Shown one piece after another: positions 56,857 through 63,177 of a stretch of 64,000 nt of DNA (positions within the stretch are counted from its first letter, which is position 1; each line of letters starts with the position of its first letter). The stretch comes from Protonemura montana. Taxonomy: Eukaryota; Arthropoda; Insecta; Plecoptera; Nemouridae. The translations under genes were made by a program, and so were the position numbers. The notes under the pieces are model-generated. The model was not told the DNA's origin. It ran no database searches and saw nothing but the letters and a program-made list of their open reading frames with translations. The stretch is taken from contig OX387603.1 of the NCBI GenBank assembly GCA_947568835.1, positions 15,524,651 through 15,588,650 on the forward strand, read 5' to 3'.

Positions 56857-57071
56857 TCACCACAGCCCGGAGGAGTACCCGCCGGGGGGCACGCGACCGC
56901 GGTTAGGGGTGCTGGCGGGAGCGGCTGGGGCCACTGAAGCCGTACCATTGGTCTTGGGCGCCGAACCGTTGGTCATGCGCGATGGCGCGGGGGCGGCGGC
57001 CACGGGGGCAGCAGCCATTTCCTTGACACCGTTGGCGATGGCGTAGCCCTCCCCTGTCACTGGATTGCCGA
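56857..57071 (-). CDS. Jupiter: Jupiter/JPT-family microtubule-associated protein, last coding exon
   Basis: This exon encodes the C-terminus of a Jupiter-type protein, a small, mostly disordered microtubule-associated protein of arthropods related to vertebrate JPT1/HN1. With the split Val codon it reads VGNPVTGEGYAIANGVKEMA, an Ala/Pro/Thr/Asn-rich linker, and the hallmark ending RGRVPPGGYSSGLW before TGA. Drosophila Jupiter has the same NPVTGEGY and RIPPGGYSSGLW motifs. It starts after minus-strand acceptor CTCCTTCTAG in phase 1. That fits both the cassette exon at 58095 and the large exon at 59406, so either could be its upstream partner. The local GC content is higher than in the surroundings, as expected for coding sequence. 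No lesion was seen. Confidence 0.93.
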
Positions 57072-58196: not shown

Positions 58197-59405
58197 CTGA
58201 AAGAACCAACACCAACACGACATGCAATGCCAGCCCAGACACAGTTACGATCGAACAATCATGCGCAACAGTAAAGGCATGATGCGTTCCACCAGACACG
58301 AAAAAAAAATGCGAATTGAGCTTTATGTTAGTAAGGACTTTTTTTCAGTTTTGGTAAGTTATTGTGATATAGTGCAGTAAATGAGCTTGATTTAAAGACT
58401 GTTTAAGATAAAGGCAACCTTACTATTTTGCAACCAACAATGTAAGTATGTCTGCAAGAAAGTAAAGGTAGCAAAGAGAAAGTAAACAAAGGCAAATGAA
58501 CCTATTTTCTTCAGAAACTAAATAAACCTATTTTCTTTTAACTAAAAAGTTTTCTCCAGGATATGTTCTCCTTAAATTTAGTGCTTTAATACTGATCTAA
58601 ACATTGGAATTTGTTTAATTTATAACAAAAAGTTATAATTTCTAATCAGATTTAAGTTCAAAGAAGTTTTTTTCTCCAACAATTGTTTTCTTTGATTTTA
58701 CGCATTTGGTTATAATCAAATTTGGGGATGTTATGGTTAGTGCAATTTGCGTTATAAGGCATACCATAAACCACAAGTCATGCAACACATATGAAAAAAC
58801 ACCGAACAATTTAAAAATATTAGAAAATTCCAGAGACACCGGCCCCCAGGAATCCTGGGCATGCGGAACACTTACGCCTGTAGAAAATATCTCCCAAAGG
58901 TTGCACTAGTTGACTTTTAGAAGGCTATACTAGAATAATCAACAAATAAGAATTCCACATCTCAAAACAGATTTGTCTACTTTCTCAATTAAAGGATTGA
59001 GCCTATCAAATAGGTAAGCTTATCTATTTGAGAAATGATTAAATATCATACAATCCAGTTCATAAAGATGGTAGTTAGAACTCATCATCAGATTGACTAA
59101 GTGAGCAATTGAAATGCATGTTTGCTGTATTAATCCACTCCAAAATCAGCTTTATCAAATAACTGAACTGCAGTGGAAAATAGCAAGTTATCTTTGGTAT
59201 TTAAAGTGTCATAATTTCTTAGTTTTATAAAGCTCAATTGAGTTCATCAAGGTCGACTCAAAAGCAAATAATGCATCACGTGTTTGGCTTGGTTGGTGGA
59301 AGAATGCATATCAATAAATGCAAATTTCACCAAGTTTTCATCCAAGACTTTTGAAGTTATAATTATTACTAGTTTGACGTTTTGAGACAGTGGAATGGGT
59401 CATAC
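58197..59405 (-). other. Jupiter intron
   Basis: It runs from donor GTATGACC (end of the exon at 59406) to acceptor TTCTTTCAG (58197). AT-rich, with no other feature recognised. Confidence 0.6.
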
Positions 59406-59773
59406 CTTCGTTCGTTTCTAGAACACTCTCAACCAGAATCGGCTTATCGGCCTCATCAACCTTGGCCAAAAACGATTCGAGTTCTTCATTGGCGGGGACT
59501 CCCTCAGCCTCAGCCAAAGCCTCTTCGTTGTCGAAAAACGAATGCCCCAGTGCGCCGTTCTTGTGATCGCCAATCGTGTCGGTGGTGCCGTTCTCGTTAC
59601 CAAAGAGAGCGATTTGGGGGTGTTCGACGGCGGTTAGCTTACTCTTAGAGGCTGTGGTCTCCATCATGTTGCTGAAAACGGACGACTGCAAGTGGTTGGT
59701 GTTGCGAGCGCGGGGCAGCTCAGCGTCAGATCCGAAGATGTCGCTGCTGCCGCCGCCGGGAGGCTTCAGCACC
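59406..59773 (-). CDS. Jupiter: Jupiter/JPT-family microtubule-associated protein, large internal exon
   Basis: This exon carries the family's N-terminal signature VLKPPGGGSSDIFGSDAELP (Drosophila: VLRPPGGGSSDIFGS). A second conserved element follows, NHLQSSVFSNM, equivalent to the MASNIF motif. The rest is acidic and probably disordered (EEALAEAEGVPANEELES, FLAKVDEADKPI), ending LETNE. It starts after minus-strand acceptor TGTGTTTTAG with the last base of a split codon (Arg or Ser/Lys expected) and ends at donor GTATGACC in phase 1. Jupiter-family proteins bind and stabilise microtubules through PPGG-type motifs. The short first exon with the start Met was not found in the remaining 4.2 kb; it lies beyond the palindromic transposon, either unrecognised or outside the window. 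Confidence 0.93.
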
Positions 59774-59865: not shown

Positions 59866-59869
59866 AGAT
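59866..59869. repeat. Left target-site duplication AGAT
   Basis: AGAT directly abuts the left terminus GGGTCATTCC of the palindromic element and is repeated directly after the right terminus (63174-63177). A 4-bp match alone has a 1 in 256 chance. Exact abutment to both ends makes a target duplication likely. Confidence 0.7.
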
Positions 59870-61352
59870 GGGTCATTCCATATCAAGTGCCCACACTCAA
59901 AACCTTCACTATCTCAGAACTTGACGAAATTTTCAGGAGGGTTAGAACACCGGAAATAAAAAATCTCTTTTAAAGTTTTTTTCCATATGTCTAGCGGTTT
60001 GCCCGTGGCAGGGGATGGAAAAATAAAATATTTTACTTTTTGCCCCGCACGGCCATTCACTATATTCACTCTAGCGTTTGAACAAATAAACTTAAAACAA
60101 TGGGATTAGTTCTAAAATGATAATCGTGCTTTCATTAACAAGAAAAAATGCATAAATTGCTTACTTATCAAGTTTAGGGGTAGAAAAAATCCACCCTTAA
60201 ATTTCAACCCTTAATAACTCGAGAAGTAATATTTTTTTTTTTTTTTTGTTTTGTTGTGAAGCATCTCCTGTCTATTATCTTTCCATGAAAAAAAAATTAA
60301 TCATTAACAGCCGTATGATCAGAAGTTATGAGATTTTTATTGTATAAATGTGTGTGCATTTAGTTGTGTTTCTGCAAGTCTGTTAGCATGGTCCATGCAA
60401 ATCACCCGTAAATTGATAGATTATATAATTTTTCAGTTTAAAAATTGTGTGTAAGTACTACAAAGATTCTTTTTACTCACTCATTTCTTCGTTTCACTCT
60501 GACCTATCACTCTGGCTTCTTCGAACAACGGCGAGGAGGAGAACACCCGCGTGGCTACTGAGTGCTCAGACACGGGTACGAAGCAATGCAGTTTTTGCGT
60601 GCCGGGAATTGGCCGGGATGACGCAAATCGTGTGGCTAGCACCTGTTCTGTGTCTTGGTGCTCCTCAATAGTTCCGAATGTGAAGTTGATGGTCGGGATG
60701 GCTTCGACCGCCCAATCGAAGAGTTGCCGGGGTGTTATTATTTGCGACTCGTAGGGGCGCTGAAGACTCGCCCGCGCTGCCAGCCGCTTGACCGTCCCTC
60801 CGACGCCGTCGCAGGCGCTCTTCCCATGTGACGTCGCCGTGAAATGCCACTCCACGTCGGCCCCAAAGTCTCTTTGATAGTGGCACAAGTTGGCAAAATT
60901 TTTCCTATTTTTATATTGCGAGGCTGCCCCATCAGAAAAATAGAACATCTTCTTTATGGTCTGAAATTTATTGTGCAAAAAGCTCACGAGTTTTTTTATG
61001 AATAGATGCACTGCGACAGTGTTGTGGATCAAACTCTCGGAAATTACAACAAAGCTGATGTGGCGCTCTTCCCCGCCCTCTTTGTAATATGCCACGAAGG
61101 GGTGGATGGTGGCGGACGCATTGTTCCAGTGGAACCCCTGGGCCTCGTCTTGTAGCACGAACGCATAGTTTTCGGCAAAATCACAGATCACCAAAAACTC
61201 GCCGGGCAGGAGACCGCACTTGATGTCCGATTGGTGCGAAGATTGTTTTTTAGCAATAAAAGAGTGGCGGCACAGAGCAACTAATTTTGCACAACAACTG
61301 TCCACGAATTCCTCGGATGAATCGATGTGCGTTTGCAGGGTGCATCGGTCGG
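59870..61352 (-). repeat. Left inverted arm (1,483 bp)
   Basis: This is the reverse complement of 61691-63173; paired positions sum to 123,043. It includes about 611 bp between the terminus and the stop codon of the coding part (60481), with 16-T and 9-A homopolymers matched in the other arm. It is the same sequence as the right arm, so both terminal sequences are identical well beyond a usual transposon terminal repeat. Confidence 0.95.
60481..61352 (-). pseudogene. Transposase-like protein, truncated arm copy (left)
   Basis: This is the same C-terminal sequence as the right-hand copy from its residue 97 onward, including the motifs DFAENY, YFSDG and SHGKSACDGVGG. It has no upstream coding part. 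Beyond the arm the frame runs only a few codons into the antisense of the centre, to a TGA at 61369-61371, and there is no early ATG. It cannot make the cysteine cluster encoded by the centre. It lacks the N-terminal half of the family and is presumably nonfunctional. It may be transcribed towards the left end. The translation agrees with the right copy along its full length, so no independent decay is visible. Confidence 0.85.
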
Positions 61353-61690
61353 ATAAAAGAGTGGATTTTCAAAATTTGCAGAGCTGCGGCCGAAGAACTG
61401 TGTGTTGCCTGGTGCCAGTGGGACTCATTCGGTGTGCGTGTGCACTATCCACCAAAACGTCAAGCTAATGATCATCGGTGCCGACTTGACGAAGTTGACA
61501 GTGGACCAATCTTATCCGATAACATCTTACCACGACTGCCTTGAGCAGTTGGTCTGCGACAGTCCCCTCCCCGAATGCCATCTAGGCGAGTGTGAGGAGT
61601 GCCCGGGCATCGAGCCGTTAAAGGAGCGCCTCACGCAACTGCTGGACGACGAAATGGTGGACAATGTTATCTACAAGCAGTGGGAGAGCA
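61353..61690 (+). other. Unique centre of the palindrome (338 bp)
   Basis: This is the only non-duplicated part of the element. It encodes about 111 codons upstream of the right arm in one plus-strand frame, from KSGFSKFAELRPKNC to the IYKQWES region. The frame is closed by TAA at 61354-61356, one base inside the left junction. It contains the four-cysteine cluster (C52, C59, C64, C67 of the reading that starts at 61402). Confidence 0.9.
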
Positions 61691-62562
61691 CCGACCGATG
61701 CACCCTGCAAACGCACATCGATTCATCCGAGGAATTCGTGGACAGTTGTTGTGCAAAATTAGTTGCTCTGTGCCGCCACTCTTTTATTGCTAAAAAACAA
61801 TCTTCGCACCAATCGGACATCAAGTGCGGTCTCCTGCCCGGCGAGTTTTTGGTGATCTGTGATTTTGCCGAAAACTATGCGTTCGTGCTACAAGACGAGG
61901 CCCAGGGGTTCCACTGGAACAATGCGTCCGCCACCATCCACCCCTTCGTGGCATATTACAAAGAGGGCGGGGAAGAGCGCCACATCAGCTTTGTTGTAAT
62001 TTCCGAGAGTTTGATCCACAACACTGTCGCAGTGCATCTATTCATAAAAAAACTCGTGAGCTTTTTGCACAATAAATTTCAGACCATAAAGAAGATGTTC
62101 TATTTTTCTGATGGGGCAGCCTCGCAATATAAAAATAGGAAAAATTTTGCCAACTTGTGCCACTATCAAAGAGACTTTGGGGCCGACGTGGAGTGGCATT
62201 TCACGGCGACGTCACATGGGAAGAGCGCCTGCGACGGCGTCGGAGGGACGGTCAAGCGGCTGGCAGCGCGGGCGAGTCTTCAGCGCCCCTACGAGTCGCA
62301 AATAATAACACCCCGGCAACTCTTCGATTGGGCGGTCGAAGCCATCCCGACCATCAACTTCACATTCGGAACTATTGAGGAGCACCAAGACACAGAACAG
62401 GTGCTAGCCACACGATTTGCGTCATCCCGGCCAATTCCCGGCACGCAAAAACTGCATTGCTTCGTACCCGTGTCTGAGCACTCAGTAGCCACGCGGGTGT
62501 TCTCCTCCTCGCCGTTGTTCGAAGAAGCCAGAGTGATAGGTCAGAGTGAAACGAAGAAATGA
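61357..62562 (+). CDS. Transposase-like protein, 5'-truncated (401 codons open, first ATG at 61402)
   Basis: From the ATG at 61402 the protein has 386 residues; 15 further in-frame codons (KSGFSKFAELRPKNC) precede it. Residues are numbered from that Met. SGTHSVCVCTIHQ is at 6-18, and a cysteine cluster at 52-67 may bind zinc. DFAENY is at 154-159, YFSDGAASQYKN at 234-245, and SHGKSACDGVGGTVKR at 271-286. Three spaced acidic positions (D154, D237, D278) in such motifs suggest an RNase H-like DDE/D transposase core; this is inference. I recall similar uncharacterised proteins in many invertebrates that are considerably longer at the N-terminus, so the start here is probably artificial. Residues 1-96 come from the centre and the rest from the right arm. 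There are no internal stops. It could still be an autonomous fragment or a repressor, but loss of the N-terminus argues against a full transposase. Confidence 0.8.
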   Translation, partial: KSGFSKFAELRPKNCVLPGASGTHSVCVCTIHQNVKLMIIGADLTKLTVDQSYPITSYHDCLEQLVCDSPLPECHLGECEECPGIEPLKERLTQLLDDEMVDNVIYKQWESTDRCTLQTHIDSSEEFVDSCCAKLVALCRHSFIAKKQSSHQSDIKCGLLPGEFLVICDFAENYAFVLQDEAQGFHWNNASATIHPFVAYYKEGGEERHISFVVISESLIHNTVAVHLFIKKLVSFLHNKFQTIKKMFYFSDGAASQYKNRKNFANLCHYQRDFGADVEWHFTATSHGKSACDGVGGTVKRLAARASLQRPYESQIITPRQLFDWAVEAIPTINFTFGTIEEHQDTEQVLATRFASSRPIPGTQKLHCFVPVSEHSVATRVFSSSPLFEEARVIGQSETKK

Positions 62563-63173
62563 GTGAGTAAAAAGAATCTTTGTAGTACTTACACACAATT
62601 TTTAAACTGAAAAATTATATAATCTATCAATTTACGGGTGATTTGCATGGACCATGCTAACAGACTTGCAGAAACACAACTAAATGCACACACATTTATA
62701 CAATAAAAATCTCATAACTTCTGATCATACGGCTGTTAATGATTAATTTTTTTTTCATGGAAAGATAATAGACAGGAGATGCTTCACAACAAAACAAAAA
62801 AAAAAAAAAAATATTACTTCTCGAGTTATTAAGGGTTGAAATTTAAGGGTGGATTTTTTCTACCCCTAAACTTGATAAGTAAGCAATTTATGCATTTTTT
62901 CTTGTTAATGAAAGCACGATTATCATTTTAGAACTAATCCCATTGTTTTAAGTTTATTTGTTCAAACGCTAGAGTGAATATAGTGAATGGCCGTGCGGGG
63001 CAAAAAGTAAAATATTTTATTTTTCCATCCCCTGCCACGGGCAAACTGCTAGACATATGGAAAAAAACTTTAAAAGAGATTTTTTATTTCCGGTGTTCTA
63101 ACCCTCCTGAAAATTTCGTCAAGTTCTGAGATAGTGAAGGTTTTGAGTGTGGGCACTTGATATGGAATGACCC
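61691..63173 (+). repeat. Right inverted arm (1,483 bp)
   Basis: This is the partner of 59870-61352. It begins inside the coding region (codon 97 of the 386-residue reading), passes the TGA at 62560-62562, and ends in about 611 bp of noncoding sequence with terminus GGAATGACCC. Confidence 0.95.
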
Positions 63174-63177
63174 AGAT
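63174..63177. repeat. Right target-site duplication AGAT
   Basis: AGAT directly follows the terminus GGAATGACCC and matches the AGAT before the left terminus. Confidence 0.7.

Follow-up and report, generated by a model that had tools for sequence, protein, structure and literature searches.

Contig OX387603.1 of the Protonemura montana genome (assembly GCA_947568835.1) carries, in a stretch of 64,000 nucleotides referred to here as the window (positions 15,524,651 to 15,588,650), an element of 3304 bp that reads as one half of a transposon duplicated head to head. The locus raises two questions: whether the element is an accident of this site or a member of a family, and how a palindrome of this size could be formed. 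Base-by-base comparison demonstrated that the arms at 59870-61352 and 61691-63173, each of 1483 bp, are reverse complements of each other but for a single mismatch (99.93% identity), which makes a chance origin impossible. The symmetry breaks off at a centre of 338 bp and at the outer ends of the element. The initial annotation had reported equal arms, this centre and one mismatch; alignment of all 1483 positions confirmed them, with 59996 as the only differing position. The features are the following (positions in the window):

59866..59869: left target site duplication (AGAT), a 4-bp direct repeat
59870..63173: entire palindromic element, architecture A, 3304 bp
59870..61352, minus strand: left arm, an inverted copy of the parent's right half (parent 1-1482 from the right terminus)
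59870..60375: outer part of the left arm, equivalent to the ~505-bp terminal inverted repeat of the parent; of right-end type at 7/7 diagnostic sites
59996..59996: sole mismatch between the arms (G here, A in the natural, right arm)
61353..61362, minus strand: 10-bp remnant of the join of palindrome type C (minus-strand sequence ACTCTTTTAT), which the parent lacks here
61353..61690: asymmetric centre, 338 bp, which apart from the 10-bp relic continues into the right arm just as the parent does
61402..62562, plus strand: open fragment of the parent ORF, 386 aa from the C-terminal side; ~300 residues are absent at the N terminus
61691..63173, plus strand: right arm, ordered as in the parent (3' portion of the gene, then its 3' flank and the terminal repeat on the right)
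62668..63173: terminal inverted repeat from the parent's right end, ~505 bp
63174..63177: right target site duplication (AGAT), a 4-bp direct repeat

The flanking AGAT duplication had not been mentioned in the initial annotation.

The parent transposon and the identity of the palindrome ends

The host genome (258 Mb, 34 contigs) was searched at the DNA level using the left half of the element as query (1652 bp). There were at least 96 matching pieces (40 of 543 candidates scored), including inverted arm pairs with varied centres and single arms running into other sequence. A first set of twenty copies was fetched with flanks and mapped on the window element; the genome matches used were the first 100 of 150 and the first 100 of 133. 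The initial annotation had proposed looking in the genome for full-length parents and for other palindromes, and both were found. The parent is an element of 3780 bp with 505-bp terminal inverted repeats, and the six copies examined were all of this length. In copy L051 the terminal repeats (505 bp) are 98.6% identical, there is a single ORF (702 codons stop-to-stop, 689 from the first Met) and the target duplication is CTAT (4 bp). The five further parents have the length of L051, perfect 4-bp duplications and an ORF of equal length. The six copies differ pairwise by 0-3 substitutions. A protein search revealed the complete ORF (688/688 residues without a stop) at a minimum of 49 loci (65 of 467 candidates scored); these loci are known from the ORF alone, the terminal repeats having been checked in the six copies. 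With near-identical full-length copies and this many whole ORFs, the family is young and probably active. The palindrome was also considered as the standard form of the element, and rejected given the six 3780-bp parents with 505-bp repeats and the whole-ORF loci.

We infer that the ORF encodes the transposase, as it is the only long ORF of the parent. The 688-aa protein matched no Pfam transposase family, which is weak evidence, and a PDB sequence search gave nothing relevant. A single Pfam match of the 386-aa fragment to a doublecortin-like domain was below the curated cut-off and was judged spurious. A scan of viral contigs found no relative. MuDR makes target duplications of 9 bp, against 4 bp in this family; this and, weakly, the missing Pfam match would speak against a MULE transposase and a derivation from MuDR. 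Duplications of 4 bp are of the size expected for the Sola superfamily. However, family targets such as CTGC, GTTG and CTCC are at odds with the AWWT target site of Sola2-type elements, as given in PMC3627910, and the resemblance to Sola is a lead only.

The window element is 99.34% identical to the parent over 1-1821 and 99.46% over 1-1482 (coordinates inward from the right terminus), and both arms are collinear with the right half. The head-to-head duplication of a half-element, as first proposed, is thus confirmed by the existence of the parent. Each arm includes the ~505-bp terminal repeat that the parent has anyway, leaving ~980 bp of newly duplicated sequence in either arm. Of the parent ORF, the last 386 codons are kept and the first ~300 are gone, in agreement with the missing 5' part of the gene in the initial annotation; consequently, the window copy was taken as non-autonomous.

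The left and right ends of the parent are identical over the outer 476 bp in five of the six copies (the sixth, L056, differs additionally at 362), and they differ at seven constant sites between 477 and 502 in all six. Consequently, only the inner part of the repeat (477-502) discriminates a left from a right end. The right-end state was present at 7/7 of these diagnostic sites in every arm of 23 aligned palindromes (9 A, 6 B, 5 C, 1 E and 2 F). In this alignment the inverted arms of L038 and L050 were omitted in choosing the variable sites, though they were displayed, and the E arms were compared to position ~1397 only. As judged by these sites, both palindrome ends are the parent's right end, as the initial annotation had held in calling them the same original end. 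Its further claim that the second original end is missing stands for the inner repeat (477-502); the outer 476 bp would read the same from either parent end.

Multiplication and remodelling of the palindromes

Six palindrome architectures were distinguished (coordinates start at the right terminus of the parent and run inward):

C, 3205 bp: 1-1810, then 1398-1 inverted, with CC shared at the join
A (window element), 3304 bp: C's join (CC followed by ACTCTTTTAT) with 10 bp of C's inverted arm, followed by 1482-1 inverted
B, 3090 bp: 1-1611, a local rearrangement of ~12 bp, then 1467-1 inverted
E, 3412 bp: both halves with C's join and inverted arm, meeting at ~1558/~1470 with a 34-bp insert copied from 1305-1338
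F, 2723 bp (L053): 1-1372, 4 bp, then 1345-1 inverted
G, 2789 bp (L063): from C's inverted arm across its join as far as 1731, followed by 1315-1 inverted, with TGTG shared

By inspection, the joins are matches of 0-4 bp or fillers of a few to 34 bp. Genome-wide pattern searches (up to one mismatch for A, B and C, up to two for F) located one of the six joins at 42 loci (10 A, 6 B, 14 C, 1 E, 9 F and 2 G); this count covers the known joins, and palindromes with other joins may add to it. The C-type join gave 18 matches in 17 elements (14 C, 2 G and the single E, which has two joins). Two loci, C11:11973320 (C) and C3:24464906 (F), had a single arm only among the matches listed.

We examined 27 palindromes (the window element and 26 fetched copies), 24 of which had both ends; L039 (A) and L054 (G) lacked one end in the fetched stretch, and for L062 the fetched stretch did not include the left end. 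A perfect 4-bp target duplication flanked 23 of the 24, as it did all six parents, the exception being L050, a type C copy with a decayed end. Flanks differ between the palindrome copies. Their own duplications indicate that the palindromes transpose, presumably mobilised in trans by the parent transposase. The type-A join was present at 10 loci, and the nine copies with both ends had distinct flanks, their own target duplications and 0-2 substitutions between them. An origin of the window element as a one-off product of its present site was therefore rejected. With its 10-bp relic of C's join, it most likely descends from type C. Large palindromes are a known artefact of long-read libraries, in which a read crosses a hairpin and returns on the other strand. 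The possibility that the assembly or sequencing created the element is practically negligible, as identical joins recur at the 42 loci over many contigs and matching 4-bp duplications flank 23 of the 24 palindromes with both ends.

Pairwise substitutions were as few in B (0-1, six copies) and F (1, two copies) as in A. In C they ranged from 0 to 14 (five copies), and all values above 2 involved L050. The two arms of one palindrome differed by 0-1 substitutions in 21 of the 22 compared and by 3 in L050; small arm indels (L031, L049, L050 and L055) were set aside in these counts, and the comparison for L038 covered 1336 bp. The window mismatch at 59996 corresponds to alignment column 127; the A of its natural arm is also borne by L031 in the natural arm and by L037 in the inverted arm. 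Variation at column 13 likewise swaps arms among L047, L048 and L049. Exchange between palindrome arms is therefore seen directly.

C's join is contained in A, E and G. In a two-tract comparison to C (L046), A, B and F had 0-1 mismatches and E had 2, compared to 6-10 against the parent over the arms. B and F thus share C's haplotype, without C's join. The join inside A, E and G, together with the haplotype in B and F, makes type C the likely founder and the window type A a likely derived product. As B and F lack C's join, the shared haplotype is the one argument for their descent from C, and an unsampled parent with the palindrome haplotype would serve as well. The full haplotype was present in none of the six sampled parents; L056 shares part of it, probably as a conversion patch. 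The second tract of G had 5 mismatches to C vs. 3 to the parent in L054, and 7 vs. 8 in L063; by these counts C is no nearer to it than the parent is.

Among the palindromes examined, L050 (type C) has diverged furthest, being 12-14 substitutions away from the four other C copies compared. Its states at columns 773 and 1426 are parental, whereas the remaining aligned palindromes have the derived states wherever their arms reach. Searching for exact occurrences of the derived state at 773 yielded 77 matches, of which 7 were single and the others formed 35 inverted pairs; the singles were the full-length parent L056, the older relative L061 (about 92%) and five matches in known-join loci. C14:6904609, a lone match to the palindrome haplotype, was rejected as a palindrome, being an older relative (~92%) with no second arm in 3.2 kb. 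A second reading of the order, in which a deletion between two 12-bp repeats turned A into C, would account for the joins equally well but is at odds with the age of L050. F and G could have come from C, and B from an A-like element, by simple central deletion. Explained in this manner, B, F and G leave only A and E requiring fresh copying.

Origin of the palindromes

The parent, the 42 join loci, the target duplications, the right-end origin and the presence of C's join in A, E and G are directly established. As for the mechanism, the window element is probably a transposed, non-autonomous derivative with two right ends of a recently active 3780-bp transposon, made by gap repair and end joining. 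Template switching or gap repair, the class of origin suggested in the initial annotation, is thus still the best. An excision or break would leave a gap (the model assumes cut-and-paste excision), and both broken ends would copy a template element. The parent repeats are identical over ~476 bp and, consequently, the left broken end could enter the right end of the template, so that both ends would copy the right half inward, to ~1810 and ~1398. Joining of the nascent ends via the 2-bp match CC would give type C. With two functional ends, this palindrome could be moved in trans by the parent transposase, and palindromes would then act as repair templates themselves, new stops and joins giving the other types. 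Type A would be C 1-1820 joined to C 1482-1 inverted, one tract having overrun C's join by 10 bp and the other having copied C's natural arm to 1482. In this model the inward copying from the right terminus would run 1.3-1.8 kb per broken end. Two-tract gap repair would explain the central joins, the 10-bp overrun in A and the structure of E (arms of 1644 bp with no mismatch).

Fold-back (snap-back) priming, in which a nascent or resected strand of the right half would fold and copy itself outward to the right terminus, the piece with two right ends being excised later by transposase, is possible though unlikely. In its favour, all the architectures consist of inverted duplications around a small asymmetric centre, with matches of 0-4 bp or short fillers at the join, and the hairpin loops would be the centres of about 30 to 423 bp. 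By inspection, there is also a short imperfect hairpin at ~1455-1480, the site of the B rearrangement. However, E has C's join in both halves and a third short filler, and the A tract crosses C's join; both would need extra switches under fold-back, while two independent repair tracts give them directly. Moreover, no founding copy with an inverted flank was present among the 24 palindromes with both ends.

Conversion between the terminal repeats of one element or between chromatids, overrunning into the gene as proposed for Galileo and followed by arm recombination and central deletions, is improbable. The homogenisation of the parent repeats over 476 bp, the arm-to-arm exchange at columns 127 and 13 and the part of the palindrome haplotype borne by the full-length parent L056 are all in its favour. 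Conversion alone, however, would preserve the parent length or join at homologous places, and C's join links ~1810 and ~1398, which share only 2 bp and an imperfect match; an end-joining step would be required even under conversion.

The founding site was not found among the examined palindromes, as those with intact ends show normal target duplications. These copies have moved from their birth places and consequently cannot decide between gap repair, fold-back and conversion. Left-half palindromes were not seen: for patterns at ~2600 and ~3203 (58 and 63 matches), no two inverted matches lay within 5 kb of each other. This would be due to a single founding event or else to a bias outside the gap-repair model.

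Comparison with known systems and possible function

MITEs and foldback elements have long inverted repeats and a small centre and are non-autonomous, presumably mobilised in trans. The palindromes described here are larger (2.7-3.4 kb), have the 3' portion of the ORF in each arm and are young direct derivatives rather than miniatures. In PMC3440606, Mu killer, a maize MuDR derivative, is described as internally deleted and partly duplicated, with both terminal repeats from the mudrA side and, between them, about 1.3 kb of the transposase gene in inverted duplication. It resides at one locus, its centre could not be sequenced, and it silences MuDR; the authors now favour shorter antisense transcripts in this silencing (PMC3440606). 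The palindromes here are like it, as so described, in having both ends from one parental end and an inverted partial duplication of the inferred transposase gene. By contrast, there are 42 join loci and six sequenced architectures here, beside the 49 or more whole-ORF parent loci.

The '2RT' or extended-TIR copies of Galileo in Drosophila mojavensis and D. willistoni have terminal repeats lengthened by inverted neighbouring internal sequence, for which recombination or conversion was proposed (PMC3573991 and PMC4168063). In these studies neither genome yielded a functional Galileo transposase copy, and in the cases described the recruited internal stretch is either spacer (cases of 121 and 441 bp) or the final 69 bp of the coding segment; in one D. 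willistoni copy the repeats exceed 4.2 kb via tandem repeats and an inserted element (PMC3573991, PMC4168063). Compared to these descriptions, the palindromes here recruit ~0.84-1.14 kb, mostly ORF, in near-identical young copies, and the join of one palindrome reappears inside others. Pack-TIRs in animals (FoSTeST) are described in PMC8277862 as arising when gaps of TIR elements are refilled by template switching (microhomology 1-36 bp, median 2 bp) and multiplying by later transposition. The gap-repair model agrees with this gap filling; the filler of Pack-TIRs comes from outside the element (PMC8277862), whereas that of the palindromes would be the element's own other half, inverted.

Inverted-duplication derivatives of this kind are therefore already known, Mu killer and the recombinant-repeat copies of Galileo being precedents. 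What is unusual here is the multiplication and serial remodelling of the palindromes; a limited literature search found no description of palindromes multiplying beside intact parents and templating further palindromes. Parent, likely founder and remodelled descendants coexist near-identical in one genome, so that both the joins and the succession of events can be followed at single-base resolution. Both the growth of long terminal repeats and the existence of hairpin self-silencers of transposon families in animals are thereby open to testing.

The palindromes might be mobile, self-multiplying silencers or parasites of the parent, that is, portable hairpins of the 3' part of its gene that were reshaped repeatedly, a suggestion by analogy that we regard as rather doubtful. 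Mu killer is a precedent for silencing of a parent by an inverted-duplication derivative; in P. montana such silencing is a prediction from the sequence. If true, read-through of an intronic palindrome would form double-stranded RNA of ~1.4 kb against the parent, and the family would make its own brake. Exon-like stretches of a JUPITER-family gene (PF17054) lie near the window element, which is 97 bp upstream of a splice-acceptor-like site of a JUPITER exon and probably sits in an intron of this gene. Read-through RNA of the window element would fold into a duplex of ~1.48 kb matching the parent.

Position relative to the JUPITER exon-like stretches

Two exon-like stretches of the window matched the Pfam family JUPITER (PF17054, cut-off 27 bits):

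59338-59773, minus strand: exon-like stretch, 27.8 bits, just over the cut-off
56857-57060, minus strand: exon-like stretch, 19.5 bits, under the cut-off

The palindromic element (window 59870..63173) was located 97 bp upstream of the acceptor-like site of the 59338-59773 stretch, which places it, probably, inside an intron.

Clustering of the joins

The joins of palindrome architectures A, B and E were mutually within about 15 bp, at an imperfect hairpin (CGATGCACCCTGCAAACGCACATCG, parent positions ~1455-1483, counted from the right terminus). This hairpin is a possible break or pause site.

Other copies of the family

Among the matches listed, ordinary internal-deletion derivatives seem to be fewer than palindromes; C5:17884428 / 17885958 and C3:26784621-26786573 were apparent cases. 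Two further loci were examined:

C14:6903887: L061, older relative of the transposon family, from position 88 onward
C4:6486531-6490310: L056, full-length parent

L061 showed about 92% identity to parent positions 1-842, and no second terminus was found within the 3.2 kb fetched. The pattern search also revealed six left-half matches that have the variant GGATAATCG in common (C12:7012771, C16:14171499, C16:28943101, C2:3958861, C2:4145887 and C2:4959463), none with a match to the pattern of parent position 2600 nearby. The six loci are perhaps an older or deleted subfamily. At columns 362, 532 and 773 of the alignment, the right half of L056 shared the palindrome haplotype in part, a patch that may reflect conversion from palindrome to parent.
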